Virus record (IMG/VR): IMGVR_UViG_3300032213_000722
Location: 1-64,000 of that record
DNA length: 64,000 nucleotides
From: a virus
Direction: 5' to 3' (one strand)
The notes under the pieces were generated by a model that searched no databases, was not told the origin of the DNA, and saw only the letters and a program-made list of their open reading frames with translations. This document shows, one piece after another, positions 1,071 to 62,621 of the stretch (its first letter is position 1; each line of letters begins with the position of its first letter). Position numbers and translations under genes: made by a program.

Positions 1071-2729
1071 TTAGATATTTTGTAAATCTTTAACATAAAT
1101 CTTCCCGTAGTATTCCGGACGGACCATCTTCTTAGCGTAACGAGTCATCACGCCCCGACGAGGTGTGAAATTTTGTGGGTCGTACACTAAAGGAGTCATA
1201 ATCAAAGGAACATATGGAGCGTAAACTGCACCTGTCTCTAAGAAGTTGTTACCTCTATATCCTAATAAGATTTCGTTAGAAGTCATATAAGGGTTTTTGT
1301 AAACAGTGTAGCGATTAGCCATAGCACCTACTTGAGTTACACCAGCTGCGAAAGATGTTGCATCTTTATCAGCGTTTACTACGAATCCAGGAATAGATTC
1401 CAAGATAGTACAAACATCAGGAGAAGCAACGATGAAGTTAGCTCCACCTCTCAATGTTAATTGGTGAATCTTATTAGATACCTTATTGATTTTAGTTCCT
1501 AAAGTCTGGAACCAAGTGTTCTTTTGGTAAGCCAATGAAGAGTTACCAGTAGACCAAGCTGCTTGTCCAGTTGCACCATTGTTAAGTAATTCCTCACCAA
1601 TAGTTGCAGACCAGTATTCAGTAGTCAATGCGTTGCTCTTTAACATATCTAAGATTTCTAAGTCAATCTCTAATGAGATATAATCAGATAACATAGAAGT
1701 TAATTCAGCTTCTGCATCGATTGAGTGATATGCATTTAAGTCTTGTGCTAATTCAGGAGTCCACACTGCTTTCAACTTACGAGTCTTAGCAACGATTGCC
1801 TCTGATTTCAATTCTAAGTCGATTTCAGGAATATCCAATGCAGTTGTTGTGTTACCAGCAGCGTTTGCAGTTGAATCTTCGAAATCACCTCTATCGTAAG
1901 CTACAGGAACTTCAGAGTAAACGATAGTGTTTGAAGGACCACCAGCTGCTGCTAAAGTAGAACCAGAAACGTATAATACCGCTAATCCAGAAGTTGAGTT
2001 GTAATAGTTGTATTGGTTTAAGTTAGCGAATACACCAGCGTTTGTTACTAATGTAGAACGAACTGCATTAGAATCAAAAGTTGAAGCGATTGCTGAACCA
2101 GATACAGTTAATTTGAATACTTTACCAGCCGAAACTGATGCAGAAATTGCTCCATCATATCCAACTTCAGACCAAGTTACACCAGATGCTGAAGTGATTG
2201 TACCATTTACTTGAGTAGTAGTAATAGTTGCAGTAGCATCGTTTACTGAATAACCATAACGGCCTTCACCATATAAACCACCTGTTGCTGCATCAGTTCT
2301 ACCAAAGTTAGTAGCTGAACCAGTTGCGTTAGTACCACCGAAAAGTGATTTTCCACCGAATTGTCCTGCTGCTCCTTGTGAAGAACCATATTTGAAATCT
2401 AAGAAGAATACAAGACCAGAAGGTAAGTTCATAGGTTGTACACTAACGAATTCTTTAGAAGCAATCTCACCAAAGATTCTTCTTACTAAAGGTAAAGCTA
2501 CACCACTCCACTCTTCTGAACCAGAAGAAGTACCAGTTTGAGTTGCCTCGTCCAACAATTGCTTAGCTTGGTTCTCTAAAAGAACTGCCATAGAGTGTTG
2601 GTCTCTATCTTTCATACCTTCTAATAGACCGGTTTTTTCCCACTTAGATTTCAATTGACGTGTTTCAGCCAACATTACTGCTTGTGGGTTTTTGCCTTCC
2701 ATTAATTTGGATAAATCAAAATTTGCCAT
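1071..2729 (-). CDS. 23: Major capsid protein, T4 gp23-like
   Basis: The 552-residue protein (T4 gp23 is 521) has the hallmark VQPMNLPSGLVFFLDFKYG segment near residues 97-115, equivalent to VQPMNSPTGQVF in T4. The C-terminal part has APYVPLIMTPLVYDPQNFTPRRG and MTRYAKK, like T4 APYVPL and KTRYG. LLDE-A at residues 58-62 fits the prohead protease LxE^A site and lies where T4 gp23 is cut (after residue 65). Residues of about 120-290 form a Gly/Ser/Thr-rich beta insertion, probably a surface-exposed Ig-like domain. The gene sits directly behind the scaffold gene (26 nt apart) and in front of a strong terminator. It forms the capsid hexamers. Confidence 0.93.
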   Translation of the reverse strand: MANFDLSKLMEGKNPQAVMLAETRQLKSKWEKTGLLEGMKDRDQHSMAVLLENQAKQLLDEATQTGTSSGSEEWSGVALPLVRRIFGEIASKEFVSVQPMNLPSGLVFFLDFKYGSSQGAAGQFGGKSLFGGTNATGSATNFGRTDAATGGLYGEGRYGYSVNDATATITTTQVNGTITSASGVTWSEVGYDGAISASVSAGKVFKLTVSGSAIASTFDSNAVRSTLVTNAGVFANLNQYNYYNSTSGLAVLYVSGSTLAAAGGPSNTIVYSEVPVAYDRGDFEDSTANAAGNTTTALDIPEIDLELKSEAIVAKTRKLKAVWTPELAQDLNAYHSIDAEAELTSMLSDYISLEIDLEILDMLKSNALTTEYWSATIGEELLNNGATGQAAWSTGNSSLAYQKNTWFQTLGTKINKVSNKIHQLTLRGGANFIVASPDVCTILESIPGFVVNADKDATSFAAGVTQVGAMANRYTVYKNPYMTSNEILLGYRGNNFLETGAVYAPYVPLIMTPLVYDPQNFTPRRGVMTRYAKKMVRPEYYGKIYVKDLQNI

Positions 2730-4069: not shown

Positions 4070-5884
4070 TTAATTTAATAAACCAATTGCTATATCTTTA
4101 ACTTCTCTCTCCGCACCAGCTGCATATTTCTTATTACAAATTGCAATAGTGTTACCAGATACTTTAATCATATACATAGGAATCATTGAAGTTGTGAAAT
4201 CATATTTAATTCCTGCTTTCTTCAATTCAGAACCTACATTCATAAAAGATGTTGCGTTTTTAACTACTGCTTCAATTTTATCCAAATCTGCATCGTATCT
4301 TCCTTCCGTTACTACTGATTCTTCAACAAATCCTTTACTCTTGTAATCTTTGATTCCTTTTTCCAAATCTACTTTGTTCTTAAAAATCTTTATATCATAA
4401 AAATCACTACCATCATTGTGTGTTGATGTACCATTGTGAGAACTGATACTATATTTTGAACTACCAATTGGTGGATTTACTTTAAATACTTTCTTACCTT
4501 CGTTTACTGATTCGTTTGCGTAAGTTTTTACATATGCGTTTTGTATTGAACTATTTGGTGCAGCTTTTATTGCTTTTATAAAATCAGTTTTTCCTTGTGA
4601 AGTTTTATGGGCGATTGCAAATATTTTTTCTATATTCAATTTATTATCTTCAATAAACTTTTTAACATCTTTTGTATCTATTTGTGTAAGATTTGATATA
4701 GCATTAGCGTATCTATCAGTCCATGCCCAACTTAAACTAGCTTCGTTTACTGATTCGTTTGCGTAATTTTTTACATACCATTTGAAAGAAGAATTATTAG
4801 GAGTTCCAACTAATGCCTGAACAAAACGAATTCTCTCCGGCAATTTACCTTTGGTAACGTGAGTTAATATTTCTTTTGCGTTTAAATCATTATCATCAAT
4901 AAACTTTTGAACTGCTTCTTTTCTAGTGTTAGTCATTGAAGCGATTCCCATTGCTTCATGTGATATTGTTTCGTTTACTACGGATTCGATAACAATTCCG
5001 TTTTCATCTCCTCTTTTAGCAGTTTTGATACCACCTTCGATTGAATCTAATTTATGTCTAACTTTCTTTGAACCTGTTATCTTACCTTTTTCATCACATG
5101 GTACTAATGTTGCTGAATAATCATCCATTTCAACAACTTTGTAGTATTTACCACCTTCAATTCCTTTTAATCCAGTAAATCCTTGTCCATAAATTACAGA
5201 ACCAACATATAAATTGGTTGGGTATTTTGCTTCGTTTACCGATTCGTTTTCTATAATACTATTAAACAAATCACCAGATAGGGCAATTGCCGAACCAAAT
5301 TTATGATTCCAAATACTTCTCCAAGCATCATCCAATTTTACAATACCAGATTTTGTTGGTTTAGAAATAACCATATCTACAATATTTTCAAACTTTTTAA
5401 GTTCAGAAATAAATGTTTTTATTTTACTATCAGCCTCAGGATATTTTGGATGTGGCTTATATTTGTGTTTTAAAGTTTCTTTTATAGCATTTTTTAACAC
5501 ATTACCAAAAGCCTCAACTGCTTGTTGTACATCTTTCTTTTCTCTTATAACGGATGTATGTAATGCAGCAACATTATTATTAATAGCTACAACTAATCTA
5601 ACTCCCCAATCATCTTTTGGCTCTATCTTAGCTTCATTTACCGATTCTCTCAAACTATCTCTATATGTTTGACGGATGATTTCTTTTAATTCTTTTTCCA
5701 TATTTTCTTTTTTCACATGGTTAGGTAAACCTTTGTGTTTAGTTGATGCGTAATCTTTTGCGTCTGCATCACTCATTGAATCAGCTGCTTTTTCAACTTC
5801 CGATGATGGGGCATCCATGTCTCCTTTTTGTACGGCATGAACCATTCCCATAAAACGTTGTTGAGCTTTTGATTTTGCAGGCAT
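4070..5884 (-). CDS. Head-internal polyprotein with DUF3008-like N-terminus and six protease-type sites
   Basis: The 604-residue protein starts with a DUF3008-like module (MPAKSKAQQRFMGMV ... KHKGLPNHV, residues 1-56). Six near-identical sites follow: ESVNE^A at 84/85, 218/219 and 381/382, ESVVNE^T at 305/306, ESVNE^G at 462/463 and ESVVTE^G at 527/528. They divide the chain into seven segments of about 65-134 residues. Segments 306-381 and 382-462 are homologous to each other (xKFI(D/E)DNxLN ... SSxxxxYVKxYANESVNE). The sites match the LxE^A/G pattern of T4-type gp21. The gene lies between the core-protein operon and gp22, so I infer packaged internal proteins released by cleavage. Segment functions are unknown. 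Confidence 0.7.
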   Translation of the reverse strand: MPAKSKAQQRFMGMVHAVQKGDMDAPSSEVEKAADSMSDADAKDYASTKHKGLPNHVKKENMEKELKEIIRQTYRDSLRESVNEAKIEPKDDWGVRLVVAINNNVAALHTSVIREKKDVQQAVEAFGNVLKNAIKETLKHKYKPHPKYPEADSKIKTFISELKKFENIVDMVISKPTKSGIVKLDDAWRSIWNHKFGSAIALSGDLFNSIIENESVNEAKYPTNLYVGSVIYGQGFTGLKGIEGGKYYKVVEMDDYSATLVPCDEKGKITGSKKVRHKLDSIEGGIKTAKRGDENGIVIESVVNETISHEAMGIASMTNTRKEAVQKFIDDNDLNAKEILTHVTKGKLPERIRFVQALVGTPNNSSFKWYVKNYANESVNEASLSWAWTDRYANAISNLTQIDTKDVKKFIEDNKLNIEKIFAIAHKTSQGKTDFIKAIKAAPNSSIQNAYVKTYANESVNEGKKVFKVNPPIGSSKYSISSHNGTSTHNDGSDFYDIKIFKNKVDLEKGIKDYKSKGFVEESVVTEGRYDADLDKIEAVVKNATSFMNVGSELKKAGIKYDFTTSMIPMYMIKVSGNTIAICNKKYAAGAEREVKDIAIGLLN

Positions 5885-9062: not shown

Positions 9063-9821
9063 TTATCTTATTTTTGATTTCAACTTTGCAATAACAGAAT
9101 TTATAGAATCATTATCACCATCAATTGTTAATACTTTTTTATTGTTGTGATATAAATCATACCCTATACTATAAAATATACCCTTAAATCTTTTTTTAAG
9201 TTCTAAAGATAATTGCATTTGAAATGGACTTGCTAATTTTGATTTTGGCCAAATACCTTCCTTAATTGATTTTCCTAAACCCAATCTTTCTTTCATAACA
9301 TCAGGCTGAATATCTGCAATCTCATAGTAACGAGATAGAATGTGTCCCATATCTTCGTATAATGAATGTAATCTTTCATCCATTGCTTTTGCTTCCACAG
9401 CAAACTTTTGGAAACTTTTATCTAACTTATCTAATTCAGTCATATTACGTTTAACAGTCACACCATCAAACCAATCTGCTGTTTCTCTCAAAGTTAATTC
9501 TTTTGCTGCTTCAACAATTCCACCCAAAGTGTTAGCTACTTCCGTTAAATCGGATGCTCTTTGCATTTGTTCTTGGAATGTAGCATATGTAGATATGATT
9601 TCTAAAAAATGTTTTTTAACCTCATTACTTAAAGGTCTTTTATCTCCTGCTAAACTTTCTTTAAGACTAAACTTTCCGTTTACAATCTTTACTTCGTTTA
9701 AGTTAGTTTTACGAATGTCATTATATCCCTTTGATACGTTAGTAGCTTTTCTTTCAGCTTCTACCTTCAAAGTGATTTTGTTGTTATGTACATAATCGTA
9801 TATGTCAAATGGCTTGCTCAT
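9063..9821 (-). CDS. Prohead core or head-internal protein next to the protease gene
   Basis: 252 residues, predominantly helical, with KVE^A near residue 21 and NLNE^V near 43 as possible prohead protease sites. The middle (about 65-170) is a long amphipathic helical domain of the type EVKKHFLEIISTYATFQ ... RYYEIADIQ. The start codon overlaps the gp21 stop by one nucleotide (TAATG), implying translational coupling. In T4, small core proteins gp67 and gp68 also neighbour gp21. I do not recognise the family with certainty. Confidence 0.5.
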   Translation of the reverse strand: MSKPFDIYDYVHNNKITLKVEAERKATNVSKGYNDIRKTNLNEVKIVNGKFSLKESLAGDKRPLSNEVKKHFLEIISTYATFQEQMQRASDLTEVANTLGGIVEAAKELTLRETADWFDGVTVKRNMTELDKLDKSFQKFAVEAKAMDERLHSLYEDMGHILSRYYEIADIQPDVMKERLGLGKSIKEGIWPKSKLASPFQMQLSLELKKRFKGIFYSIGYDLYHNNKKVLTIDGDNDSINSVIAKLKSKIR

Positions 9822-10408
9822 TATGATATTTCAGTTATAATTTCTCTCATTAAATCTTGTGCTTTGCAGTAATCTCCGCAAACATCAGTTCCAATTTGTC
9901 TTGTTACCGATTCGTTTACAGGTACCATAAATGCACCATGTGTAGACGGATTAGAAACAAAATCCCAACCTATAAGCTCAAAATCTTCCTGAACTTCTAC
10001 TTTATTTCCTTCCATTTGTTTTGTAGAACCCATACCTCTTGATGATATACCTAATAGGATACCAGCTTTAAGTAATTCTTTAAGGATATTACCAGATGGA
10101 GTTGCAAGGATTTCAACCGTCCCACATAAATCATCTCCTTCCCAATGTATTTCTCTAACATTGTGTGATACGTTCTTTAAGTTGATTACAGTTGAATCAG
10201 GATGGTCTAATTCACCTAATGCTCTACGTTCTTTGATAAGTTGCTCATACTTTTGAGCTTCTCTCATTAATGTAGGCTTTGGATATATTCTACCATTTTG
10301 ATTCTCAGCACCAGCTCTTTGAAGAACACCTTTAACGATAGTTCTACCACCAGCATCCTCTTCTACCTTGCCTTCGAATAATTTGGTTTCTATTAAAAGA
10401 TTCTTCAT
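9821..10408 (-). CDS. 21: Prohead core protease, gp21-like
   Basis: The 195-residue protein (T4 gp21 is 212) carries the serine-protease signature of the herpesvirus/gp21 assembly-protease fold. It has NGRIYPKPTLMREAQKY, a catalytic His in LGELDHPDS (H69) and a catalytic Ser in LGISSRGMGS (S122/S123), followed by DFELIGWDFVSNPS. VNE^S at 166/167 and LFE^G at 12/13 are plausible self-cleavage sites. It matures the head by cutting the capsid protein, scaffold and internal proteins at xxE^A/G sites, which recur in the surrounding genes. Confidence 0.92.
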   Translation of the reverse strand: MKNLLIETKLFEGKVEEDAGGRTIVKGVLQRAGAENQNGRIYPKPTLMREAQKYEQLIKERRALGELDHPDSTVINLKNVSHNVREIHWEGDDLCGTVEILATPSGNILKELLKAGILLGISSRGMGSTKQMEGNKVEVQEDFELIGWDFVSNPSTHGAFMVPVNESVTRQIGTDVCGDYCKAQDLMREIITEIS

Positions 10409-10421
10409 TTTATTTTAATTC

Positions 10422-11162
10422 TTAGTTTTTAAGTAAATCATTTATTACTTTATCAAATAATCTTTGGCTATTTGTATTACGAGCTCCAGTAAATCCTCTT
10501 TCTTTTTGTAAATATGCAACAACTCCACCTCTTAATGCTCGTTCAACTTCATCGGATTGCATTACTTTTTTAACCGCTGCTTTAACATCATCGTATTCGG
10601 GAAATTCATTTCCTTCGGCATCTCTTGCTTCGTTTACTACGGATTCGGATTTTTCAACTGCATTCCATTTGATTTCTTCTTCGTTTAACTTACCAGATAC
10701 CATTGCAGACCACATTTCATCAATAATATTAGATGTGATAAAACCCTCTTTATCAAAAAATTCCTGTGCTAATTTTTTTACTTTTTCAATTTTATCACGT
10801 TTAAGTCTGTTTTCACGACTATCTGGGTCATTATTATAAGCATAAGCTACCTCACGAAATTCTGTATTAAATTCACGTTGAGTTTTTACTTTACGGCTAA
10901 ACAATGGCCCTCCACCATTTGCATATTTTTTCCAATGGTTAATATCAATTGCTTCCGTTACTACGGATTCGGATTTTTCACCTTTACCATTCCAAGCAGA
11001 ATCAATTTTATTAAAGAACTCTTTTTTCTCCTCATCACTCATAGATGGGATAGATTTACCAGCCTTATCCAATGCCTTTTGGAAGAATGCCTGATATTCA
11101 GTTTCTTCTACCATTACTTCCTTAACTAATTCTTTTAGTCTTTGTTTTGTTATACCTGCCAT
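10422..11162 (-). CDS. Head-internal polyprotein with two ESVV(T/N)EA sites
   Basis: 246 residues. The N-terminal segment (1-70) contains EYQAFFQKALDKAGKSIPS and MSDEEKKEFFNKIDSAW, a short helical module I associate with phage head proteins. Two nearly identical sites, KSESVVTE^A (70/71) and KSESVVNE^A (178/179), split the chain into three units of about 70, 108 and 68 residues. The N-terminus (MAGITKQRLKELVKEVMVEE) could be a removable leader. The gene lies immediately upstream of gp21, 13 nt away. Unit functions are unknown; capsid packaging is inferred from site type and position. Confidence 0.6.
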   Translation of the reverse strand: MAGITKQRLKELVKEVMVEETEYQAFFQKALDKAGKSIPSMSDEEKKEFFNKIDSAWNGKGEKSESVVTEAIDINHWKKYANGGGPLFSRKVKTQREFNTEFREVAYAYNNDPDSRENRLKRDKIEKVKKLAQEFFDKEGFITSNIIDEMWSAMVSGKLNEEEIKWNAVEKSESVVNEARDAEGNEFPEYDDVKAAVKKVMQSDEVERALRGGVVAYLQKERGFTGARNTNSQRLFDKVINDLLKN

Positions 11163-12668: not shown

Positions 12669-14432
12669 TTAAATTTTCGTGTCATCTAATAGATTTTTTT
12701 CATCTAACATACCTGATTTTTCAATCAAAACCTTTCTTTTAGCTGATATTCCATTTACATATTCTTTTGCTAATTTTGCACTTGCTATGTTTCTATTTTC
12801 TCTTTTTCGTTCTCCGTGGTTTTCTTTATCACCTAAAGGGTCTCTACCATATGGATGTTTGTCTTTACCATATGTGTTACCTTCTCTTGGTCTACCACCT
12901 TTATCTTGACTCATACCCAATTTTAACTCCTCTATCTCCTGCTCCACATTTTGTTGTTTTGGTGGATTTGCTGGGTCTTCACCTTGCTGTTCAATTGAGT
13001 TGTGTCTAAATCTATCTTTGATATCTAATATTACTTTAGCTCTTTCAGTATTTATTTCATCTTCACTCATATTAAATACATTATGATACACCCAATCCGT
13101 AGATAGCATATTCATATTTTTAATATCAGTTCCCAATCTTACCTTTTCACTCCAAAGATTTACTTTCTCTTGCTCATAGATTGTAGATGAGTTTGTAAGA
13201 GTTAATTCAAAGTTTACCATTTCAGCATCATCGATACCTTGAGCTGCTAAGTGAACAATTGCTATTTTAGTTAATTCACTTACTACCGTTCTCTGAATTC
13301 TTTCAACAGTTCTTGCGAATCTAACATCTTCTGCCGCAAGAGTTGCTTTACCATTTACGTTCTCATCATATGATAAGTAAGCCTTTGGTACTCTCAATGC
13401 AGCAAATAATTTGTTCTTTAAGTAATCAATATCTTCCGTTGCAGTATATTCTAAACCACTAATGTTTTCAATTGATGTACCACTATCTCCACCTCTAACA
13501 GGTAAGAAGAAATCTTCCGTAAGGTTTTGGATATTGTATTTTAAGTTGTAATCTCCTGTATTTCTATCAACGAATGGAGTTTTCTTCATTTTGTTGATAA
13601 TTTTTTGCATATAGTTATCAACCTCTTGTGGTGGAATGTTACCAATATCAATTTTGAATACTCTCTTTTCAGGAGCTCTCATAATACGATGGATTAACAT
13701 CGCATCTTCCATAAGAGTTAGTTGTTTCCAAATTCTTCTTGCACCTTCCAACATTGATTTACCATATGGTAGGAAGTTTGTATCTGAAAGTAAACGGAAG
13801 TGAGCCATTTCATAGTTCTCATATTCCTTTTTACCAATCTCATCCAACTCTACTTTAAACTTCACATAGTTTGGATTTTGTGGGTCGGTATTTTCTAATC
13901 TTTCAGTATTATATGTTGAATATGGTTTTACGTTTACAATACCAGCATTCTCACCAATCTCCAATGCCAAAAAGAAATCACCATACTTAACCATATTGCG
14001 AACCCAAGGCCATAAGTTAAACTCTACGTTCATTACATCGTAGAATAGGTTATGTAATGATTCTTTCACATTTTCATTAGATGATTTGATTGTCAATACC
14101 TCACCATACTCATCCTTTGTAGTTGATTCATCCGCATAAATGTCTAATGCCGATGAAAGTATCGGGTCATTATCCATTGCATCATAATCTCTGAATAATT
14201 CTCTACGAACTTGTGCATATGCCATTGATTGTGCACCACCTTGTTGTTCGTAGAATGATTTTTGTAACTTTGTGTACCTATCACGTAGGTTCATAAAGTT
14301 TGTATTGAATTGTCTCTCATCGGTATCTACAACTTTACGTCTACCGTCTTTATCAATACGCACAACCGCTTGTGTTGAGAATAACTTTCTTAATCTACCA
14401 AAAAAACTTCTATCATCATTTGCTTCTGCCAT
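12669..14432 (-). CDS. 20: Portal protein, gp20-like
   Basis: The 587-residue protein (T4 gp20 is 524) has typical portal segments. These include YDAMDNDPILSSALDIYADE (about 86-105), the long wing or stem region with MVKYGDFFLALEI, RLLSDTNFLPYGKSMLEGAR, MRAPEKRVFKIDIGN, and LRVPKAYLSYDENVNGKATL. The C-terminal 70 residues are charged and Gly/Lys-rich, longer than in T4. It forms the dodecameric DNA channel at the unique vertex that docks the terminase. It lies 11 nt after the small 145-aa head gene, apparently in one transcription unit. Confidence 0.92.
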   Translation of the reverse strand: MAEANDDRSFFGRLRKLFSTQAVVRIDKDGRRKVVDTDERQFNTNFMNLRDRYTKLQKSFYEQQGGAQSMAYAQVRRELFRDYDAMDNDPILSSALDIYADESTTKDEYGEVLTIKSSNENVKESLHNLFYDVMNVEFNLWPWVRNMVKYGDFFLALEIGENAGIVNVKPYSTYNTERLENTDPQNPNYVKFKVELDEIGKKEYENYEMAHFRLLSDTNFLPYGKSMLEGARRIWKQLTLMEDAMLIHRIMRAPEKRVFKIDIGNIPPQEVDNYMQKIINKMKKTPFVDRNTGDYNLKYNIQNLTEDFFLPVRGGDSGTSIENISGLEYTATEDIDYLKNKLFAALRVPKAYLSYDENVNGKATLAAEDVRFARTVERIQRTVVSELTKIAIVHLAAQGIDDAEMVNFELTLTNSSTIYEQEKVNLWSEKVRLGTDIKNMNMLSTDWVYHNVFNMSEDEINTERAKVILDIKDRFRHNSIEQQGEDPANPPKQQNVEQEIEELKLGMSQDKGGRPREGNTYGKDKHPYGRDPLGDKENHGERKRENRNIASAKLAKEYVNGISAKRKVLIEKSGMLDEKNLLDDTKI

Positions 14433-14931: not shown

Positions 14932-16524
14932 CTATAACCATTGGGATAAATCTTCAAACGTATCACCCACTCTCATCTTCCAAGGATTCTCATCCATATT
15001 AGATGGTGAATACACACCTTCGTATGTATTTGCAGTAATTCCAGCTACTGCCATTTTTGTTAAATCAATACCTTCTTGTCTTAATCTTAACGCAGTATCT
15101 CTTACCCATAATCCAATAGAGAATGCCATCACCAAGTCATCGTTGTAACCCTTCATAGCTTGTGCTCTACCGCTTGAATATATAAATGTAAACAATTCAT
15201 CAATCAATCGAGATGAACGAACTATAACGGATTTCTCTCTGAAATAATCATCCAATTTTGATATGATTAAAGGTCTTGTATTTGATGTAGTTGAAAAACC
15301 AGCAACTAATCCTCTATCTTGTGCTCTGTATCTATTGTTTAATTGATTCTCAACATCCACATATTTTAAATCTTTACTCATATAGAATAAGTTACGATAC
15401 CCTCTATCTATTACCTGTTGTATTGTTGCCCAACCAATGTTTGCGTTTTCTATTACTAATAATGCATCATTGTATTCGGTTGATATTGCTACTAATAAAT
15501 TTCCAAAATCTTTTGTATCCATCTTACCTTTGTATTCACCAACTTGCGTTGCCGTTACAATATCCATAACGTGAAAAGTAGAATAATCGGCACCATCTCC
15601 CCTTGCAACGTCAGCTACAACCATATAAGATGCATTTGATGTTGGATATTCCCATCTCCAAAAGTTGTTATCTATACCACCTTTTGAAACAGGGTTTTGA
15701 ACATAAGTTTCTTTGTAGAACATTAAGAGTTCTGGGTCAATTACATTATCTCCAGATGAAATAAAGTCACAATCACATTCTTGTGCAGCTCCTTTTCTTC
15801 CCAACAATCTTTCTTGCTCGTCTCTCCAAGTTTGGTCTCTTTCTGGATGAACTGTCCAATGTAAACGAATTGTGTTGAATGGATTTATAGATGATTCCGC
15901 ATCACTCCATGTTTGGTGAAACCAATTACCCACACCATTAGGAGTTGAAAGGGCAATACACGCCCCACCGGTTGATAGAGTAGATTGAGCTGCTTTCCAA
16001 ATCTCATCGATATCATCAATGAAAGCTGCCTCATCAAATATTAGCAGTGATAATGCTTCCGAACGTCCTGCATCAGGTGAGGAAGCAATTGCTTTAATTT
16101 GAGAACCATTTTGTAATTTAAGTGAGAGTTTGTTATCTTCTAATGCACCACCCTTTAACCAACTAGGTAGTAACTCATACATTACTCTTACTTTTGTTAC
16201 CAAGTTCTTTGCAACCTCTTGTTTTGTTGCAATAACCAATACGTTAAAATCCGTATTGAATAGCATACTCCACAATGCATAACCTGCGGATAGTGTGGAT
16301 ATACCAGTTTGACGAGATTTAAGAACGATATTAAATCTATGGTTCTTAAATTCGGTTAGTGTCTTCTCTTGAAACGGAAATAGATGAAATGGTATTTTAC
16401 CTTTCACCGGATGTTGAATCATGCAATATTTCTTCATAAAGTGGATAGGGTCACTAGCACACTTTATGTATTCTTCTCCTATAATTTGCTTTAGAGATTT
16501 CTTTTGTTGTATTCCGTTACTCAT
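14932..16524 (-). CDS. 17: Terminase large subunit, gp17-like
   Basis: The 530-residue packaging motor has an N-terminal ATPase with Walker A LKSRQTGIST (68-77, terminase-type RxxGxS/T). Walker B is LLIFDEAAFID (160-170) and the coupling motif is ALSTPNGVGN (191-200). The C-terminal RNase H-like nuclease has MVVADVARGDGADYSTF (301-317) with catalytic Asp residues and the later IENANIG and NDDLVMAF motifs. It is shorter than T4 gp17 (610). Its start overlaps the end of the upstream gene by 4 nt (ATGA), the T4-like gp16-gp17 arrangement. It pumps DNA through the portal and cuts the concatemer. Confidence 0.95.
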   Translation of the reverse strand: MSNGIQQKKSLKQIIGEEYIKCASDPIHFMKKYCMIQHPVKGKIPFHLFPFQEKTLTEFKNHRFNIVLKSRQTGISTLSAGYALWSMLFNTDFNVLVIATKQEVAKNLVTKVRVMYELLPSWLKGGALEDNKLSLKLQNGSQIKAIASSPDAGRSEALSLLIFDEAAFIDDIDEIWKAAQSTLSTGGACIALSTPNGVGNWFHQTWSDAESSINPFNTIRLHWTVHPERDQTWRDEQERLLGRKGAAQECDCDFISSGDNVIDPELLMFYKETYVQNPVSKGGIDNNFWRWEYPTSNASYMVVADVARGDGADYSTFHVMDIVTATQVGEYKGKMDTKDFGNLLVAISTEYNDALLVIENANIGWATIQQVIDRGYRNLFYMSKDLKYVDVENQLNNRYRAQDRGLVAGFSTTSNTRPLIISKLDDYFREKSVIVRSSRLIDELFTFIYSSGRAQAMKGYNDDLVMAFSIGLWVRDTALRLRQEGIDLTKMAVAGITANTYEGVYSPSNMDENPWKMRVGDTFEDLSQWL

Positions 16525-17268: not shown

Positions 17269-20200
17269 TTATTCGTAAAAAAGACCTAATATCTGATTAA
17301 GTGGAGCGAATGCTCCTGTTAATTTGTAAGTGTTTCCGTTATATACAAATACGATACCTTCGTTTGGTACTATCTTTTCAAACCCACCCAAAGCCTGTAA
17401 TCTTTGTAGTTCCAATTTAAGTTTATCCAACTTCTTAGGGTCTCCCAACTTTCTAACATCATCAACCGTCTTATGCAATCTAGCTACCATTTGTTTAGTT
17501 GCTTCCGTTGGATTTGCAGTAAGTACGGATTCCATAAATGAAAGAACATCTGCCCCAACTCCTAAGAATATTTCTTCAAATTTCATTAGGTTATCTTTTG
17601 CTATTTTAGCTTGGTCTTTCTTTTCGGTATTGTCTGCCCAACTTCTTAACTTAGGGTCTTGTATTGTTGCTATTCTAAATCCTTTATCTCCAAATGCCCA
17701 TCTCTTAACTAAACCAATCTTTTCTTGTGCATCTAAACCTTTTGCGTTTTTATCCACAAAGTTACTCCACCAAGCTTGATGATAATCAGCTACCCCATCG
17801 GAATCAGATAACCCAAACTCACTTTGTAGTTTAGATATCATACTCATATACTTTGATTGTAGTTTTGTTAAATCCTCACTCTTTGGTAATTTTTGCATTG
17901 GAGGTCCTTGTATTGTGTATTTGGATTGAACACTTGCATTTATCTGCTTAATCATACCAGCTAATATTCTTGCTGATGTTTGGTTCTCACCAGTTATGTT
18001 ACCATCAATATCATAATCAAATGTTCCGTGAAATACTAATAGCGGTTGGTTGTATGGAATTACGTTTACCGATGTTGGGTATATTACTTCCAAATTCATA
18101 AACGAACTACCATCATTGAATACCTTTTTTCTTTGTGGTTCGGATAATGAGCCAATTGCTTTTGATAAATCTTTCATAGCAAAGTTGTAAGCATCGGTTA
18201 ATCCACCTCTACCACCAAACTTATCTGCTACCTGTCCTATTGTCATAGCACCCTCACCTTTATTCTTTAGATGCGATTTGTTACGAGCTGCAACTAATCT
18301 TCCGTTTACCCAACTGATTGCCAATGCCTGTCCATCTGTCTTTTCTCTTGCTACATCCAAATCTCCAGTAAGTGCCTTCTTAACAATGTTCTTTAGGTCA
18401 GAGAACGTAAGGTTCATTTCAATATCAAACGGATGATGCATGTGTCCATAAGCTCCACCTTCGTTTAGTATTTGTTCCGTTACATAGACGGGTGTTGAAG
18501 ATTTGAAATCATCTTTTCTCATTATGGTTTTAGCAATCAATTTGTTTGCTACTGCCATAAACGGAATGTTAATGTTTGTTCTCTTATCTTTAACAACAAA
18601 CTCCTTATATTGTTTTATAAAATCTAAAAATTTCTTTTTATTTTTTGCTAATCTCTTAAAGAAACCAGTTAGTTCTGCTGGGGATATTTGTTTACCATTA
18701 CGAGGGTCATTTAATCTTTGAAAGAAATGGTCACTCTCTCTTCCCAACTCAATATCTTCAGGTGATAATTGTGCATCTGCGTATTTTTCAATCTGGTCTA
18801 AATCCGATTTAGCCATTTCTGCCATTTCCAATAAATCATTTGGCATTGGTAAATCTTGCTTTAATATACGATTGTATTTATCAGTTTTACCATCACCATG
18901 TAAATGTAATGGTAATTCTTGGTCTACTGCTTTTTTCTTTTCTCTTTCAGATGGTATTTCATCAAAGAAAGACCAACCATCTAAATTATCTAAATAATAT
19001 CCAGCATCATCATAATCATCCCAATCGGAATTCCAGTTAGTACCAGTAGTACCACCCATATCATTATCAAATGAATTGTTGCCACTATATTCTAAAATTG
19101 TATCTTCATCAATCTCATCAACCTCCTCATACCCACTCATTCCTTTGTTCTTCAACTTTTTACTTACTTTAGCAACATCATCTGCTTTCGGTGCACCATT
19201 GATAAATCCACCCGGCAGAGATAAACCTATACCAGCTCCCCCACCCAATCCCATTTCATCCAATGCAGTTATATAATCTTCTACAATTTCATTTAAATCC
19301 TCTTCAGATATTAATGATAAGTTTGTATCCAATTCAGTATCTTCCCAAAATCTTTTTGGTTTTTTAATTTTTTTCTTTGGTTTTACTTCTTTCCAATCTT
19401 CAACTTTATGTGGGTCTTTAGCAGGGTCCAAATCACTCGTATCTATATTGGTTACTTTATAGTAAACTTTTCTAAATGTTGAATCGTTATCTCTATTTTT
19501 ACCTTTACCTCTAATCCAATCACCCTGTGGTACATGTAATTGTTTATATCCACCTTGCTTAAACCAAGGTTCTGGTTTTGCTTTATTTATCAATCTTTTT
19601 TGTCCATCCGCAACATATCCAGTTTCAGGCTCACCTGCTTCAGCTGAGTATCCGCCTAATGATGATTCATTAAATAGATTTGATTTTGGTGGTATTCTAA
19701 ATGTGGTTGCTTTCTTACCATTGATAGTTGGCATACCATGCTCATCTTTATCAATATTTTTTACAACCACTCTTTTATTCTTAAACTTACCCATTAATAA
19801 AGTATCACCTACATTTACATCTAAGTTAATATCTTCGGAAAGTTTTCTTAATTTTAATGTAATAAATTTGAAAACAGTTGCATCAAACTTTGGATATGCT
19901 TTTAAGAACCCCTCTTTCTTTTCTTCTTCAGTTCCCTTACCTAACCAATTACGAACATCAGTACCACTAATAGGATTTGATTGTGATGGTGAAGCGTAAA
20001 CGTATCCTTTATCCAAATATCCCATCTCCACCTTACCTTTATATGGAGTAAAATAGTTTCCACCTAAACGTTGCTCATCCTTCTCACCAACTACAACTAT
20101 TAAACCAGTCTTAGCTGCATCGTATGAACTTACAATTTCCGTTGGTTGGTATGGGTTTTTAACCTGAACTATTTTGTTTGATGGAATACCAAACATTTTA

Positions 20201-20433
20201 GTCATTATAGTTTTTTTCTCTCTGAAATCAAATGGAGATTTTTGGCTATCGGTTTTGTTAGATGTTGCTATATAAACATCATTCTTTCCGAATTTTGATA
20301 CAAGTTGTTTGTATGTGGCGAAATGCCCTTTATGAAACGGTTGAAATCTGCCGGAATAGACAACTATTACGTTTTCCATTTCGACAGATTCTCCTAATAT
20401 GCTTTCTACTAAAAAGTTAGATAATTCACTCAT
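17269..20433 (-). CDS. Large bifunctional protein: NMN/cytidylyl-type adenylyltransferase fused to a KxDG ligase-like nucleotidyltransferase
   Basis: 1054 residues. Residues of about 21-190 form a HIGH-superfamily nucleotidyltransferase: GRFQPFHKGH (28-37), VGEKDEQRLGG (115-125) and ISGTDVR (155-161), as in NMNAT/NadR-type adenylyltransferases. A charged linker (about 200-640) follows. The C-terminal domain has the covalent nucleotidyltransferase motifs of DNA/RNA ligases: REKTDGQAL (motif I, Lys698), MNLEVIYP (779-786), LLVFHGTFD (798-806), EGIVF (1025-1029, motif IV) and YKLTG (1036-1040, motif V). ILNE^G at 657/658 is a possible prohead protease site separating the domains. The N-terminus MSELSNFLVESILGESVE could be a packaging leader. 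Related large proteins occur in other T4-like phages, but the activity is, to my knowledge, undefined. Confidence 0.75.
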   Translation of the reverse strand: MSELSNFLVESILGESVEMENVIVVYSGRFQPFHKGHFATYKQLVSKFGKNDVYIATSNKTDSQKSPFDFREKKTIMTKMFGIPSNKIVQVKNPYQPTEIVSSYDAAKTGLIVVVGEKDEQRLGGNYFTPYKGKVEMGYLDKGYVYASPSQSNPISGTDVRNWLGKGTEEEKKEGFLKAYPKFDATVFKFITLKLRKLSEDINLDVNVGDTLLMGKFKNKRVVVKNIDKDEHGMPTINGKKATTFRIPPKSNLFNESSLGGYSAEAGEPETGYVADGQKRLINKAKPEPWFKQGGYKQLHVPQGDWIRGKGKNRDNDSTFRKVYYKVTNIDTSDLDPAKDPHKVEDWKEVKPKKKIKKPKRFWEDTELDTNLSLISEEDLNEIVEDYITALDEMGLGGGAGIGLSLPGGFINGAPKADDVAKVSKKLKNKGMSGYEEVDEIDEDTILEYSGNNSFDNDMGGTTGTNWNSDWDDYDDAGYYLDNLDGWSFFDEIPSEREKKKAVDQELPLHLHGDGKTDKYNRILKQDLPMPNDLLEMAEMAKSDLDQIEKYADAQLSPEDIELGRESDHFFQRLNDPRNGKQISPAELTGFFKRLAKNKKKFLDFIKQYKEFVVKDKRTNINIPFMAVANKLIAKTIMRKDDFKSSTPVYVTEQILNEGGAYGHMHHPFDIEMNLTFSDLKNIVKKALTGDLDVAREKTDGQALAISWVNGRLVAARNKSHLKNKGEGAMTIGQVADKFGGRGGLTDAYNFAMKDLSKAIGSLSEPQRKKVFNDGSSFMNLEVIYPTSVNVIPYNQPLLVFHGTFDYDIDGNITGENQTSARILAGMIKQINASVQSKYTIQGPPMQKLPKSEDLTKLQSKYMSMISKLQSEFGLSDSDGVADYHQAWWSNFVDKNAKGLDAQEKIGLVKRWAFGDKGFRIATIQDPKLRSWADNTEKKDQAKIAKDNLMKFEEIFLGVGADVLSFMESVLTANPTEATKQMVARLHKTVDDVRKLGDPKKLDKLKLELQRLQALGGFEKIVPNEGIVFVYNGNTYKLTGAFAPLNQILGLFYE

Positions 20434-20458: not shown

Positions 20459-20468
20459 ATATAAATAT
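20459..20468 (-). promoter_or_regulatory. Late-type promoter motif ATATTTATAT
   Basis: 25 nt before the ATG at 20433 of the 1054-aa gene. Expression with late genes would fit packaging of this enzyme into virions. Confidence 0.5.
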
Positions 20469-20894: not shown

Positions 20895-22052
20895 TTATAA
20901 GAATTTTTCTAATTCTTTTATTACTGATTGTGGTGTTATTGATTTAGTACATTCAAATTGTCTATCCGTACCTTTGTGGTCGGGACACCAATTCCAATCC
21001 CCAGCATCTAATCTATAACGATTAAAACATCCTTCACATTTTCCTTTTGGTGCCGCAATTCTTACACAATCTTGCATCTCTGCCCAATCATATGAGAATC
21101 CACTCACCAATACCGTTGGAGTATTAACTGCCCAACTTAACCAACTTAAACCACTACCAATTCCTATAAATGCTTTTGATTTCCTAAGTTCATCAATTAC
21201 ATCACTTAAAGGACCGTTTGGATGTTTAACAATTCCAGTTGGTAATTTATTCCCCATATAATCATCTCCCTCTTTTGATATAAGTTTAACAGTGTATCCT
21301 TTTGAGTTTAACCAATCAACTACATACTGCCAACCATCTTTATTATTCCAAAATTTAGGTTGAGCCGTACCAAATACACCAATACAAATTTGTTTTAGTT
21401 CTGAATTTATTTCAATTGGATTTTGTTTTATTTTAGGTCTAATCTCCACATATTCCAATCCTAAAATATCCGAAGACATTTTTTGTAATGGTTGCTTTCG
21501 GAAATCGTTTGGATTTTTTAGTAGGTTTGGTTCATTGTTATCATTATAAAATAATCCGATTGAATACATTGCATATAAACCATCGGCCGCTTCACCTGGT
21601 TTAATAAACTCTAATTCAGGGTATTCATCTATAAATAGCTCATTCATAAATGTAGATGTTACAACTTTACAATTATGTTTTTTACGGAACTCATCTACAT
21701 ATGGAAACCAAGCCATCGTATCACCCAATGCTTTTGAATCTAATGGAATGTAAACTCTTTTATCAGTTGCATCATATAGATGTTCATACCAAAGTTTACC
21801 ATTTTGATAAATTTGTATTTTCCATTCTATAAAATATTCATGTGTACATTTTGTCCAACAATTGTTTCCAATATTAGTAGAAAATATTCGTTTACCACTT
21901 CTATTATCTATAAAATCAACAACGTATTCTGCTTTATAAGGTCCTTTGATTTCTACAAAAGCACCTTTAACAAAATTAACTGATACGTTGTTTTTTACTT
22001 CGGTTATGTTATTTATATTTCTTTTTAAATTTTCGTATATCATACGTTCCAA
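20895..22052 (-). CDS. Autotransporter-type O-heptosyltransferase (TibC/BAHT-like GT9)
   Basis: 385 residues. Residues near 123-150 contain LGDTMAWFPYVDEFRKKHNCKVV, and a later stretch reads SIGLFYNDNN, as in the TibC/BAHT-type heptosyltransferases that modify serines of autotransporter adhesins. The GT-B C-terminal part has FIGIGSGLSWLSWAVNTPTV (donor-binding region). A Cys cluster follows (GKCEGCFN ... NWCPDHKG ... FECTKS, about 338-372), the position of the iron-binding cysteines in TibC. It overlaps the upstream glycosyltransferase gene by 13 nt and is co-transcribed with it. The likely acceptor is a phage fibre or another protein rather than LPS; this is inferred from family and neighbourhood. 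Confidence 0.7.
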   Translation of the reverse strand: MERMIYENLKRNINNITEVKNNVSVNFVKGAFVEIKGPYKAEYVVDFIDNRSGKRIFSTNIGNNCWTKCTHEYFIEWKIQIYQNGKLWYEHLYDATDKRVYIPLDSKALGDTMAWFPYVDEFRKKHNCKVVTSTFMNELFIDEYPELEFIKPGEAADGLYAMYSIGLFYNDNNEPNLLKNPNDFRKQPLQKMSSDILGLEYVEIRPKIKQNPIEINSELKQICIGVFGTAQPKFWNNKDGWQYVVDWLNSKGYTVKLISKEGDDYMGNKLPTGIVKHPNGPLSDVIDELRKSKAFIGIGSGLSWLSWAVNTPTVLVSGFSYDWAEMQDCVRIAAPKGKCEGCFNRYRLDAGDWNWCPDHKGTDRQFECTKSITPQSVIKELEKFL

Positions 22053-24220
22053 GTTTTAATTGTTTGGTCTAATAATGAGAATCCCTCTGTCTGATTACTA
22101 TACATTTTGTTTGTAGTGTATCGTTTCATTGGATATTTAGCAAATATGTGGTTGTACCATAAATCACCAACATCCCATTCACAATCTGCTATTCTATCTT
22201 TCCACCATTGTTTATCTTTGTTTCGGACTAAATACGCATGTGCAAGGTCTTGGTTATGTGCAGTTTGTGAAAATAAATCATCTACCTTTTCTTTTGAACG
22301 AGATGGGTTATTTGCCAATCCAATGTAGTACACATCATCTCTTTCTGAAATGAAACATGCTTTATGAACTATATCTACAAACTCTTCTAAGCCGGTATAT
22401 ATGAACGCATCTGCTTCGAATATAAGAGTGTAATCGTATTTAGAATCCAAACTATCAACTGCGTTCTTATGTGCTAAATAACACCCATAATGCCCACCAG
22501 TTATCCAACCCAATCCAGCACCAGGCCATAATTCACCCGGCTTATTATCTTTACTTATATGTTCCGGTCTTCTACAATGTTCAATAGGTGGAATATCCTT
22601 ATACACTTCAGTTACACTTTGAGTATAATCAATTCCATACTTTTGTAATTGTTTTATAGAAGCAATACTAATATATTCTCTTGCATTAAATGGAGATGTT
22701 AATAGATGTTTAATTTGTATTCTTGGTTTCTTTCTTAGGAATGCTCTATAATATGTTTTATCAAATTGCCCATAAAAGAAATCATCAACTGCTTGAGTTG
22801 TTTCGGTTGAAATGGTATAATCATCTCCACTAATAATTCCACCCGGTTTTACTTTTTTATACCAAGAGTTTAAATCATTAGTAACTTCGGTATATGAGTG
22901 TCCTCCATCAATCATTATGTAATCAATACTATTATTCTTAAATTGATTAACTGCATTTAGTGAATCATCTTTTATAATATCAAATAATCCATAATTGTTT
23001 GATAGGAGTGTATTATCAATGAATTCAGGAAATAAATCTCCGTTATAATCTTGTATTACAGGCGTATGCCACTCTTCCGATGGACTTCCCTTAAATGTAT
23101 CTATGGTTGTAAAGTGAATACGTTTACCAGATTCTTTTATTTTTTGAACCATATAGTTGGTAGATTTACCCATCCATGCACCAATCTCCACAAATTCACA
23201 CCCATCATATCCAGCCTGAACTATATCTTTGTACATATCTTTATAACTAAACCATCCACTTATTTCACCAAATTCAGGTTTTAATTGTTCCAATATAATT
23301 TTTTTAGTTTCAGGTACATTACCATCAATATAAGTTACCAATGGATTATTATCGTATGTATCCAAATAAGTGTGTAATCTTCTAAAAATACAAGGTAGTT
23401 TATACGATAGTGCTTCTTTAATTGATAATGGATTTAATTCCCAAAGTGTTGAAAAGTAAAAGAAATCGGCCGCTGCGTAAAACTTATCAGCATCATTTCG
23501 TTCTCCCCATATTACACAATTAGATGGTTTATCTTCCATTAAAGGTTTCCAATAATCCTCAAAGTTCATAGCTTGATTTCCTACAAAGTGAAATTTGATT
23601 TTGTACTTTTCTAGTAATCTAGCTACCTCAAATATTTCAGCTTGGTTTTTGCCGGGAGCAAACAATCCCATATTGAGAACGTGCTTCCAATCTTTTTCAA
23701 ATCCCAATACCTCCTTTGCTTTATCTTTATCGTATTTGATATCTTCAATTGGATACTCCCATAACATAGTATCAATACCCAAATGTTCAAACTTTTTTCT
23801 ACTCCATTCAGATACTAAAATATATCTATCGGGTTGATAAATAATTGCATCAGGGTCTGTAAATGAACCATGTGTTGATGATATAATAAAATACTTACGA
23901 TTGGTATCCCAAATTTTATCTAATATATCATAATCCAAATCATGCTGTGGAATTTCCTGAAAGTGTATAATATCAGGTTCAAAATCATCTATAACTTTTA
24001 GTATATCCGATTTATCCTCATATAAAGTGTGAATGGGAACTAATGCTTTGATTTTGTTTTTTTGAACCACAAATGCATCACCACCACTATTTCTTACTTC
24101 AACTACCTTTATTTGGTAATCTTTGTAGAAATGTTCAATTTGCTTTAATAGGTATTGTGGAAGCCCTCCAGTAGATAAATGGGGAGCAACGTATAATATT
24201 TTTTTACGTGGATTGTTCAT
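22040..24220 (-). CDS. Three-domain sugar enzyme: GT4 glycosyltransferase, SAM methyltransferase, GT25-like glycosyltransferase
   Basis: 726 residues. Residues 1 to about 300 are a GT-B/GT4 glycosyltransferase (KKILYVAPHLSTGGLPQYLL at the N-terminus, LNMGLFAPGKNQAEIFE mid-domain, ELNPLSIKEALSYKLP near the donor site). Residues of about 325-475 are a class I SAM methyltransferase (FVEIGAWMGKSTNYM, DYIMIDGGHSY, KPGGIISGDDY). Residues of about 500-726 resemble GT25 (GGHYGCYLAHKNAVDSL, YDYTLIFEADAF). Each domain is about full length. Such fusions suggest one enzyme building and capping a glycan. It has its own TATATTTG promoter box and lies near the fibre genes. Confidence 0.75.
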   Translation of the reverse strand: MNNPRKKILYVAPHLSTGGLPQYLLKQIEHFYKDYQIKVVEVRNSGGDAFVVQKNKIKALVPIHTLYEDKSDILKVIDDFEPDIIHFQEIPQHDLDYDILDKIWDTNRKYFIISSTHGSFTDPDAIIYQPDRYILVSEWSRKKFEHLGIDTMLWEYPIEDIKYDKDKAKEVLGFEKDWKHVLNMGLFAPGKNQAEIFEVARLLEKYKIKFHFVGNQAMNFEDYWKPLMEDKPSNCVIWGERNDADKFYAAADFFYFSTLWELNPLSIKEALSYKLPCIFRRLHTYLDTYDNNPLVTYIDGNVPETKKIILEQLKPEFGEISGWFSYKDMYKDIVQAGYDGCEFVEIGAWMGKSTNYMVQKIKESGKRIHFTTIDTFKGSPSEEWHTPVIQDYNGDLFPEFIDNTLLSNNYGLFDIIKDDSLNAVNQFKNNSIDYIMIDGGHSYTEVTNDLNSWYKKVKPGGIISGDDYTISTETTQAVDDFFYGQFDKTYYRAFLRKKPRIQIKHLLTSPFNAREYISIASIKQLQKYGIDYTQSVTEVYKDIPPIEHCRRPEHISKDNKPGELWPGAGLGWITGGHYGCYLAHKNAVDSLDSKYDYTLIFEADAFIYTGLEEFVDIVHKACFISERDDVYYIGLANNPSRSKEKVDDLFSQTAHNQDLAHAYLVRNKDKQWWKDRIADCEWDVGDLWYNHIFAKYPMKRYTTNKMYSNQTEGFSLLDQTIKTWNV

Positions 24221-32151: not shown

Positions 32152-32856
32152 TTAGATTAGTTCAATACCACCAGTAATAGTGTGACACAATTGGTTGTAC
32201 CATTCATAATCAGAATCTGTAAATTTTATTTTGAAAGGTATTCTTGCTAAACTCAAAGCTATTGCAGCTCCAGTCCTTACTGTTACAACTTGTTTAGCTC
32301 CAGCAGATAGTTGTAAATTTTTTATTATTGAATTTGATTCATTTAAATTTATTGCATCAAAATCTTGCAATTGTGGTGAATATAACTTATCTATTTTAAC
32401 TAAATTATCTTTATAGGTATAATCTATATTACCATAATTTAATTTATATTCGTAATCTACACCAAACCCATACTCTTCTGCAAAATGTTCACTAAAAAAT
32501 TTAATTTGTTTGGTAGAGTATTGTTCATTATCATAACCAAAGCAGTAAACATTATCATAATAGTTATTAAATTTTTTGTTTAATATACCACTAATATTAC
32601 TATAAGGTCTAAAACAACAAGTTGTCAATGGGATTTTCCATTCCTCTATTGATGAAAATTGAAAAATATGAACTTTATTTACAAATTTTTCATATGATAA
32701 TATTTCAACTAATTCATTATAATATGGTGTATTATCACAAATTGCCCAATCAATTTTTGTATTATATTCTTTACAAAACCAAGAAACAATTGGTAATATG
32801 TGTAAACAATCACCCAATCGCATAGCTGTAGCAAATAATACTTTTTTAGATTCCAT
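32152..32856 (-). CDS. Heptosyltransferase-like (GT9-type) protein, short form
   Basis: 234 residues. The N-terminus KVLFATAMRLGDCLHILPIV is the GT9 start pattern (GDxLHxLP), followed by a Rossmann-type region. The C-terminal part (KQVVTVRTGAAIALSLARIP) resembles the acceptor-excluding end of GT9 enzymes, where a conserved S/T-x-x-x-LA stretch occurs. At 234 residues it is shorter than the usual 320-390, so the second half is reduced. It lies directly upstream of the long fibre gene. A role in fibre glycosylation is inferred; it might also be inactive. Confidence 0.45.
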   Translation of the reverse strand: MESKKVLFATAMRLGDCLHILPIVSWFCKEYNTKIDWAICDNTPYYNELVEILSYEKFVNKVHIFQFSSIEEWKIPLTTCCFRPYSNISGILNKKFNNYYDNVYCFGYDNEQYSTKQIKFFSEHFAEEYGFGVDYEYKLNYGNIDYTYKDNLVKIDKLYSPQLQDFDAINLNESNSIIKNLQLSAGAKQVVTVRTGAAIALSLARIPFKIKFTDSDYEWYNQLCHTITGGIELI

Positions 32857-60014: not shown

Positions 60015-60024
60015 ATATAAATAT
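60015..60024 (-). promoter_or_regulatory. Late-type promoter motif ATATTTATAT
   Basis: 33 nt before the TTG start at 59981 of the outer-membrane protein, touching the stop codon of the gene before it. Confidence 0.45.
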
Positions 60025-62620: not shown

Positions 62621-62621
62621 T

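Follow-up and report, generated by a model that had tools for sequence, protein, structure and literature searches.

A possible capsid-targeted polyprotein of T4-like phages that carries an NMN-adenylyltransferase-like and an RNA-ligase-like domain

The window analysed here comprises 64,000 nucleotides (positions 1 to 64,000) of the IMG/VR virus record IMGVR_UViG_3300032213_000722, a 67-kb virus contig of a water-borne T4-like phage in which head genes were recognised. Our subject is a polyprotein-like open reading frame (ORF) of 1054 residues on its minus strand (17269..20433), with the layout: NMN-adenylyltransferase (NMNAT)-like domain, linker, mid domain and RNA-ligase-like domain. We consider it rather probable that the product is a T4-style capsid-targeted polyprotein, from which a protease would release an NMNAT-like and an RNA-ligase-like enzyme that would be injected together as a counter-defence kit. 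An earlier, sequence-only reading of the same DNA had described an adenylyltransferase joined to a ligase-like domain in one late and possibly packaged enzyme with a role in NAD-linked repair or capping. That observation as a whole is confirmed, with motifs beyond chance (CTP_transf_like, E=5.6e-7, and the invariant residues of the C-terminal half): the ORF, on the minus strand, and its motifs lie where they had been placed. Its interpretation holds in part, for the two domain types and the likely packaging but not for the single enzyme and the NAD capping.

The N-terminal domain (residues 16-196; 19846..20388, minus strand) is of the NMNAT type within the HIGH-superfamily nucleotidylyltransferases, and its predicted fold matches NMNATs firmly. 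It matches the Pfam family CTP_transf_like (PF01467) with 30.3 bits (cut-off 21), and a profile search of the PDB with this nucleotidylyltransferase (NAT) domain gave 12 matches, all of them NMN/NaMN adenylyltransferases. The nearest relatives in NCBIfam and the PDB are NadM and the archaeal NMN adenylyltransferases, the NCBIfam matches to NadM/archaeal NMNAT being partial and far under the equivalog cut-offs. The AF2 model (pLDDT 84) found NadD, NadM and MthNMNAT as top Foldseek matches (prob 1.00). Both active-site motifs are present: HxGH (here HKGH, within GRFQPFHKGH at 28-37) and SxTxxR (ISGTDVR, 155-161); G28, R29, Q31, P32, F33, H37, S156, G157, T158 and R161 are invariant in 33 NAT domains. 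The HIGH-type domain proposed from the motifs is thus backed by Pfam, by the PDB profile matches and by the predicted fold.

The C-terminal domain (residues 659-1054; 17272..18459, minus strand) appears to be RNA-ligase-like, with a predicted fold that matches weakly but consistently. In 38 of 38 C-domains, with identities down to 33%, the residues K698, D700, R717, E782, H802, E1025 and K1037 are invariant, and they map to the motifs I, Ia, III, IIIa, IV and V of the covalent nucleotidyltransferases. The predicted adenylylated lysine is K698 in motif I (EKTDG, 697-701; codon at 18340..18342, minus strand), whose conservation in homologues had been set as a check. Further motifs are EGIVF (1025-1029) and YKLTG (1036-1040), and the C-terminal 400 residues also display ARNK, NLEVIYP and FHG. 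The ligase-type domain that had been proposed is supported by these motifs and by the fold matches to RNA ligases, with one detail that the earlier motif picture lacked: motif V reads Lys-x-Thr in all 38 C-domains, the second Lys of KxK being missing. We rejected the view that this inactivates the enzyme, since MthRnl is active with the same motif and does not need the second Lys (PMC3514331). The same residue set, including the motif IIIa His and the motif V Lys, occurs in RLIG1 (PMC11494293).

The C-domain model (pLDDT 84.9, pTM 0.81) was compared to the PDB with Foldseek, and the first 25 matches were RNA ligases or a putative DNA ligase, including fungal tRNA ligase, T4 Rnl1, archaeal RNA ligases, T4 Rnl2 and Naegleria RNL. 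In the viral fold library BFVD it found close relatives and also T4-type RnlA (E 3.8e-4) and a 'cytidyltransferase-like' protein of cyanophage S-PM2. Since RNA ligases rank above DNA ligases in the fold searches, we abandoned the reading as a DNA ligase. Direct sequence links from the C-domain to the PDB consisted solely of spurious eS6 coiled-coil-type matches and were discarded, and the C-domain of the window alone matched no Pfam family. Structure prediction of both halves, suggested beforehand, gave a clear HIGH fold and a weak yet consistent match to RNA ligases. Of the refuting outcomes named beforehand, none of those open to computation was observed.

The NMNAT-like and the ligase-like domain occur as a conserved fusion in hundreds of contigs from environmental phages. 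With the whole protein as query, IMG/VR yielded 509 relatives, and a second scan with distant C-domain queries gave at least 577, which may overlap with the 509; 4 further relatives are on phage-like contigs within metagenome-assembled genomes (MAGs) of GTDB. Among 50,697 deposited phage records just 3 contain the C-domain, one of which is an isolate, Microcystis phage Mel-JY01 (WWT39297.1). Of 36 complete distant ORFs, 32 are matched by both the NAT and the C-domain profile. The exceptions include a stand-alone C-domain gene followed by a gene with the NAT domain at its end (locus L083), a divergent N-terminus that reads GSFKPMTGGH (L166) and a sequence broken into two ORFs (L084).

Between the two enzyme-like domains the window protein contains: a small conserved segment (GDTLLMGKFKNKRVVVKNI...KKATTFRI; residues 204-253, 19675..19824) that in relatives is also found elsewhere; a hypervariable linker (residues 254-535, 18829..19674); and a conserved mid domain without assigned function (residues 538-650, 18484..18822), all on the minus strand. 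The mid domain found no match in a PDB search; matching stretches occur in Methylophilales and Sinorhizobium phages, and its counterpart lies in a separate small ORF near the gene for the terminase large subunit (TerL) in Flavobacterium phage immuto. The linker measures tens to hundreds of residues in the relatives and carries inserted domains that are unrelated to each other. Within the N-terminal and linker regions of 43 relatives we recovered: AAA_33 (12) and Zeta (11), together the P-loop kinase type (12), DUF5661 (12), PolyA_pol/CCA (2), NUDIX (1), an RNase_T DEDDh exonuclease (1) and a Zn-protease-like domain (1). ParB-like, MNT-type nucleotidyltransferase and HExxH segments were seen by eye. 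The majority of the recognisable inserted enzymes target RNA ends or nucleotides. A NadR-like role for the P-loop domain is disfavoured, as Pfam gives AAA_33/Zeta and the PDB just L-seryl-tRNA kinase, weakly. The 907-residue protein upstream of TerL in Flavobacterium phage immuto_183 (L081:1692-4415) is another kind of polyvalent protein with comparable gene surroundings; its N-terminus is nucleotidyltransferase-like, and it also has a GGFKPPHLAH domain of NMNAT-like type and a pair of metallopeptidase-like HExxH segments.

The protein is probably packaged, cleaved and injected, to judge by analogy from its N-terminus, its protease-type sites and its gene context. The TerL gene (14932..16524) is the conserved downstream neighbour, on the same strand in 107 of the 108 loci with sufficient flank. 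Further along in the window are the genes for the portal protein (12669..14432), a gp21-like head maturation (prohead) protease that is the presumed processing enzyme (9821..10408; PHROG_207, E=3.7e-50) and the major capsid protein (1071..2729), all on the minus strand, in keeping with the 'packaging block' of the sequence-only reading. The internal proteins of T4 have a 10-residue targeting propeptide and are cut by gp21 after L/I-x-E (PMC9026906). In the T4 record, IPIII and IPII begin with MKTYQEFIAE|A, and the first ten residues of the window protein, MSELSNFLVE|S (20404..20433, minus strand), resemble such a capsid-targeting sequence (CTS), with an L/I-x-E site at E10 and a second one at E15. 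The CTS-like layout is found in most relatives, with a conserved 'FLVExILxE'.

Other L/I-x-E sites of the window protein are at 200, at 377-448 (several, within the linker), at 536 and at 658; one more, at 765, is inside a folded domain and is followed by Pro. The ILNE|G junction (655-659, putative cut after E658; 18457..18471, minus strand), which opens the ligase-like domain, had been noted before and is present, but it is one site among many. Among 29 relatives, distinct [IL]xE[AGS] contexts numbered 54 in linkers versus 2 in NAT and C-domains, and the reversed motif, used as a control, numbered 26 versus 31. In 8 proteins with mapped domains, none of 33 L/I-x-E|A/G/S sites fell within a domain (18.5 expected), and the sites commonly lie directly before or after one.

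A precedent exists in the cyanophages, in whose virions NMNAT-like proteins have been detected by mass spectrometry (PMC9602691, PMC10665884). These proteins (of S-SCSM1, S-CBWM1, S-SZBM1 and S-CREM2; PHROG_395) share the HIGH-type NMNAT-like fold with the window protein and likewise belong to T4-like phages. The one of S-SCSM1 (PMC9602691) also shares the CTS-like start (MKSFLQFLKE|A) and matches the NAT profile with 8e-12. They differ in that their NAT domain is a separate protein of 286-409 residues, whereas that of the window is part of a fusion whose gene is next to TerL. Virion packaging and delivery, raised as a possibility beforehand, thus appear likely from TerL synteny, the CTS-like start, site segregation and this precedent. 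Two other ORFs of the head region, both on the minus strand, look like further polyproteins processed by the prohead protease: ES[VI]..E motifs mark junctions of repeats or domains six times in 4070-5884 (0.11 expected) and twice in 10422-11162 (0.12 expected).

Cyanophages also contain what may be a counterpart of the whole system. Gene d138 of S-PM2 encodes DUF6267 (PF19782, 1.6e-111) followed by a NAT domain, which is the reversed order, and in S-SZBM1, ACG-2014j and P-TIM40 a cytidyltransferase gene comes directly after the DUF6267 gene. Loci with DUF6267 fused to or beside cytidyltransferase genes are L246:13486-15261, L247, L248 and L250, and sequences similar to DUF6267 occur in 471 deposited phage records. 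DUF6267 has motifs in ligase order: K[WY]DG, TKSVF, QGD, HT, EG[FY]V and K..[DN/K]R. The fold of the window C-domain matches BFVD entry A0A0M6VVW4 of S-PM2 (E 8.9e-6, prob 1.00), which we assigned to S-PM2d138 from its length of 591 residues and its NAT domain. At sequence level the two do not connect: a Pfam match to DUF6267 was reported neither for the window protein nor among the 25 families listed for 38 C-domain relatives, and an hhalign comparison of the C-domain with DUF6267 was not significant, which leaves the fold search and the order of the motifs as the basis of the link. On those grounds we infer that DUF6267 is a candidate RNA-ligase-like family. S-PM2d138 and the DUF6267/cytidyltransferase pairs thus share with the window protein the two partners, the motif order and the fold match; unlike it, they are reversed or split, and their DUF6267 half lacks a CTS and is encoded among replication genes. 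Fusion in both orders and adjacency argue for a functional link between the NMNAT-like and the RNA-ligase-like enzymes.

Several points weigh against the account of a packaged polyprotein that delivers these two enzymes. The first His of HxGH is kept in just 17 of the 33 NAT relatives and is Gly in the other 16, and NadV, which supplies NMN and partners NadM in other phages (PMC9503650), was found in none of 22 related contigs, most of which are fragments. The PDB fold match of the C-domain is weak (best E 3e-3, global TM about 0.25), the low TM being probably caused by a long helical insert of about 170 residues between motifs IIIa and IV. Pfam RNA_ligase (PF09414) stays under its cut-off (best E 0.0045, weak in 22 of 38 members) and is above it in none of the 22 related contigs, which is why the C-domain is named RNA-ligase-like and not filed in PF09414. 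With hhalign, the scores of the C-domain against the family alignments of T4 Rnl1 and Rnl2 barely beat column-shuffled controls, and comparisons with these and the gp30 family alignment, as with single T4 proteins, separate poorly from such shuffles; the Rnl1 alignment paired KxDG with KxDG and NFEFVAPTNRIVLAY with NLEVIYPTSVNVIPY, which we treat as weak. Some relatives read LLLM|GG, not E|GG, at the ligase junction, and the Fisher p=8e-10 for the segregation of the sites is overstated because the related proteins are not phylogenetically independent.

The linkers are Glu-rich by inspection, which would suit an unpackaged cytoplasmic fusion in which the L/I-x-E tripeptides simply follow from acidic, flexible linkers. 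We find this unlikely, as the forward motif segregates and the reversed motif does not, the N-terminus has the T4 CTS layout, TerL adjoins almost invariably and a related NMNAT-type protein with a CTS-like start is present in virions. It is very improbable that the protein is an internal head or scaffold filler, with enzymatic folds that are non-catalytic relics serving head assembly. T4 internal proteins are abundant and partly dispensable for growth (PMC9026906) and some motif residues vary, such as the first NAT His; on the other side, seven ligase-type catalytic residues are invariant down to 33% identity and known enzymes of various kinds make up the accessory modules. The variable His and the missing NadV would also fit co-delivered enzymes of which the first makes another product (a CoA precursor, FAD, a CDP-compound or an adenylylated signal or toxin), the more so as the Pfam level is merely 'cytidylyltransferase-like' and phosphopantetheine adenylyltransferases are also in the fold list. 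We hold this to be doubtful, since all 12 PDB profile matches and the first 27 fold matches are NMN/NaMN adenylyltransferases and archaeal/NadM NMNATs typically carry GRFQPFHxGH and SGTxxR.

The functional link suggested by fusion and adjacency could also mean a single uncleaved bifunctional enzyme whose first half makes the NAD or AMP that feeds NAD-linked ligation or 5'-capping of nucleic acid by the second. We judge this quite unlikely: the linkers vary widely in length and are interrupted by unrelated domains, a domain of the NAD-ligase Ia type was not recognised and Foldseek puts ATP-dependent RNA ligases first. Protease-type sites bracket the domains, so that the two enzymes probably come apart inside the prohead and are delivered together, and the reversed order in S-PM2 together with the split genes of L083, S-SZBM1 and P-TIM40 argues that the halves act as separate enzymes. 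The idea that the protein acts as one enzyme is therefore not retained. Given the pattern of cleavage sites, neither NAD capping nor an NMNAT-ligase enzyme with channelling is likely; nothing speaks for capping, and the ligase half shows no trace of using NAD. A connection of the halves through NAD-dependent repair or ADP-ribosylation is conceivable, but no direct evidence of it was found.

In the processed polyprotein that we favour, the N-terminal targeting peptide of 10-15 residues would carry the protein into the prohead core, where a gp21-like protease would cut after L/I-x-E at the targeting peptide and in the linkers. This would free the NMN-adenylyltransferase-like enzyme, the mid domain and the RNA-ligase-like enzyme, all of which would enter the host with the DNA. 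The ligase, in the relatives together with kinase, CCA-adding, exonuclease and Nudix modules, may rejoin tRNA or other RNA that host nucleases have cut, while the NMNAT may rebuild NAD+ that is drained by NADase defences or needed by NAD-using phage enzymes; such a counter-defence role is the most likely one. Both roles have parallels: T4 Rnl1 and Pnk repair tRNA cut by PrrC (PMC11494293), RNA ligases with kinases and CCA-type enzymes mend cleaved tRNA in phage-host conflict (PMC7824862, PMC11494293) and phage NMNATs restore NAD+ against NADase defences (PMC9503650, PMC12774641). A PADLOC run recovered no defence family.

The elements are known from other systems. With T4 RNA ligase 1, fungal Trl1, Naegleria RNL and RLIG1 the C-domain shares motifs I, Ia, III, IIIa (a His, as in RLIG1), IV and V; it differs from them by its very divergent sequence, the helical insert, the Lys-x-Thr and the putative delivery in virions. 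T4 Alt and IPI-IPIII have the CTS propeptide and the gp21 processing at L/I-x-E that are predicted for the window protein, and are ejected into the host for early takeover or anti-restriction (PMC9026906), but are one enzyme or effector each, unlike the string of enzymes of the window protein. The polyvalent proteins (Iyer et al. 2017, PMC5512222) are likewise mosaics of multiple, diverse enzyme domains and virion-associated by context; the window protein differs by its constant pair of NMNAT and RNA-ligase-like domains and by prohead-protease-type sites in place of zincin autoprocessing. A term search of PMC5512222 found no mention of adenylyltransferase, and RNA ligases solely as non-partners of its 2H domains.

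The 'late-type promoter' of the sequence-only reading is doubtful as stated. The T4 consensus TATAAATA does not occur in sense orientation upstream of the gene and was rejected. The octamer reads TATTTATA along the gene; it lies at 20460..20467 (minus strand), 34 nt upstream of the start codon. This octamer is recurrent: it precedes, in sense orientation, the minus-strand genes that start at 12601, 20433, 20845, 24535, 32060, 39027, 40994, 52695, 56541 and 61064, mostly about 26-35 nt from the start codon. TATTTATA, which is the TATAAATA box of T4 in reverse complement, is probably the late promoter of this phage. TATATTTG boxes (TAnnTTTG, the Bacteroidota-type -7) upstream of the genes at 24220 and 37145 (minus strand) hint at a Bacteroidota host. 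One related contig belongs to a Flavobacteriales MAG, and an ORF near the window end (62622-63824, minus strand) resembles a Bacteroidota surface lipoprotein (MKKLLVLFASLTIFGCSKD...) and is possibly host-derived. Glycosyltransferase-like ORFs are found among the structural genes (20895-24220, 32152-32856, 60024-61064 and 61907-62686, all on the minus strand), the stretch 22040-24220 being glycosyltransferase-like and apparently fused to a methyltransferase.

What is new is the combination of known elements and the large unrecognised family that carries it. With a chance that we put at somewhat less than even, marine and freshwater T4-like phages have a previously undescribed, domain-swapping, processed polyprotein that provides each virion with an RNA-repair set, made of an RNA-ligase-like core and interchangeable modules, and an NAD+-making enzyme, and the DUF6267-cytidyltransferase pair is the same kit, split or reversed, in which case DUF6267 would be an RNA-ligase-like family. 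This offers a hypothesis on function for an abundant family of uncultivated phages, the C-domain of which has no Pfam or PHROG model, and for DUF6267 as well, and it would explain the recurrent NMNAT-like proteins in cyanophage virions. If true, RNA repair would arrive pre-made at DNA entry instead of being expressed later, host defences that cut tRNA or drain NAD would meet a phage in which they are already countered, and the prohead protease would in effect serve to process an effector polyprotein that is injected.

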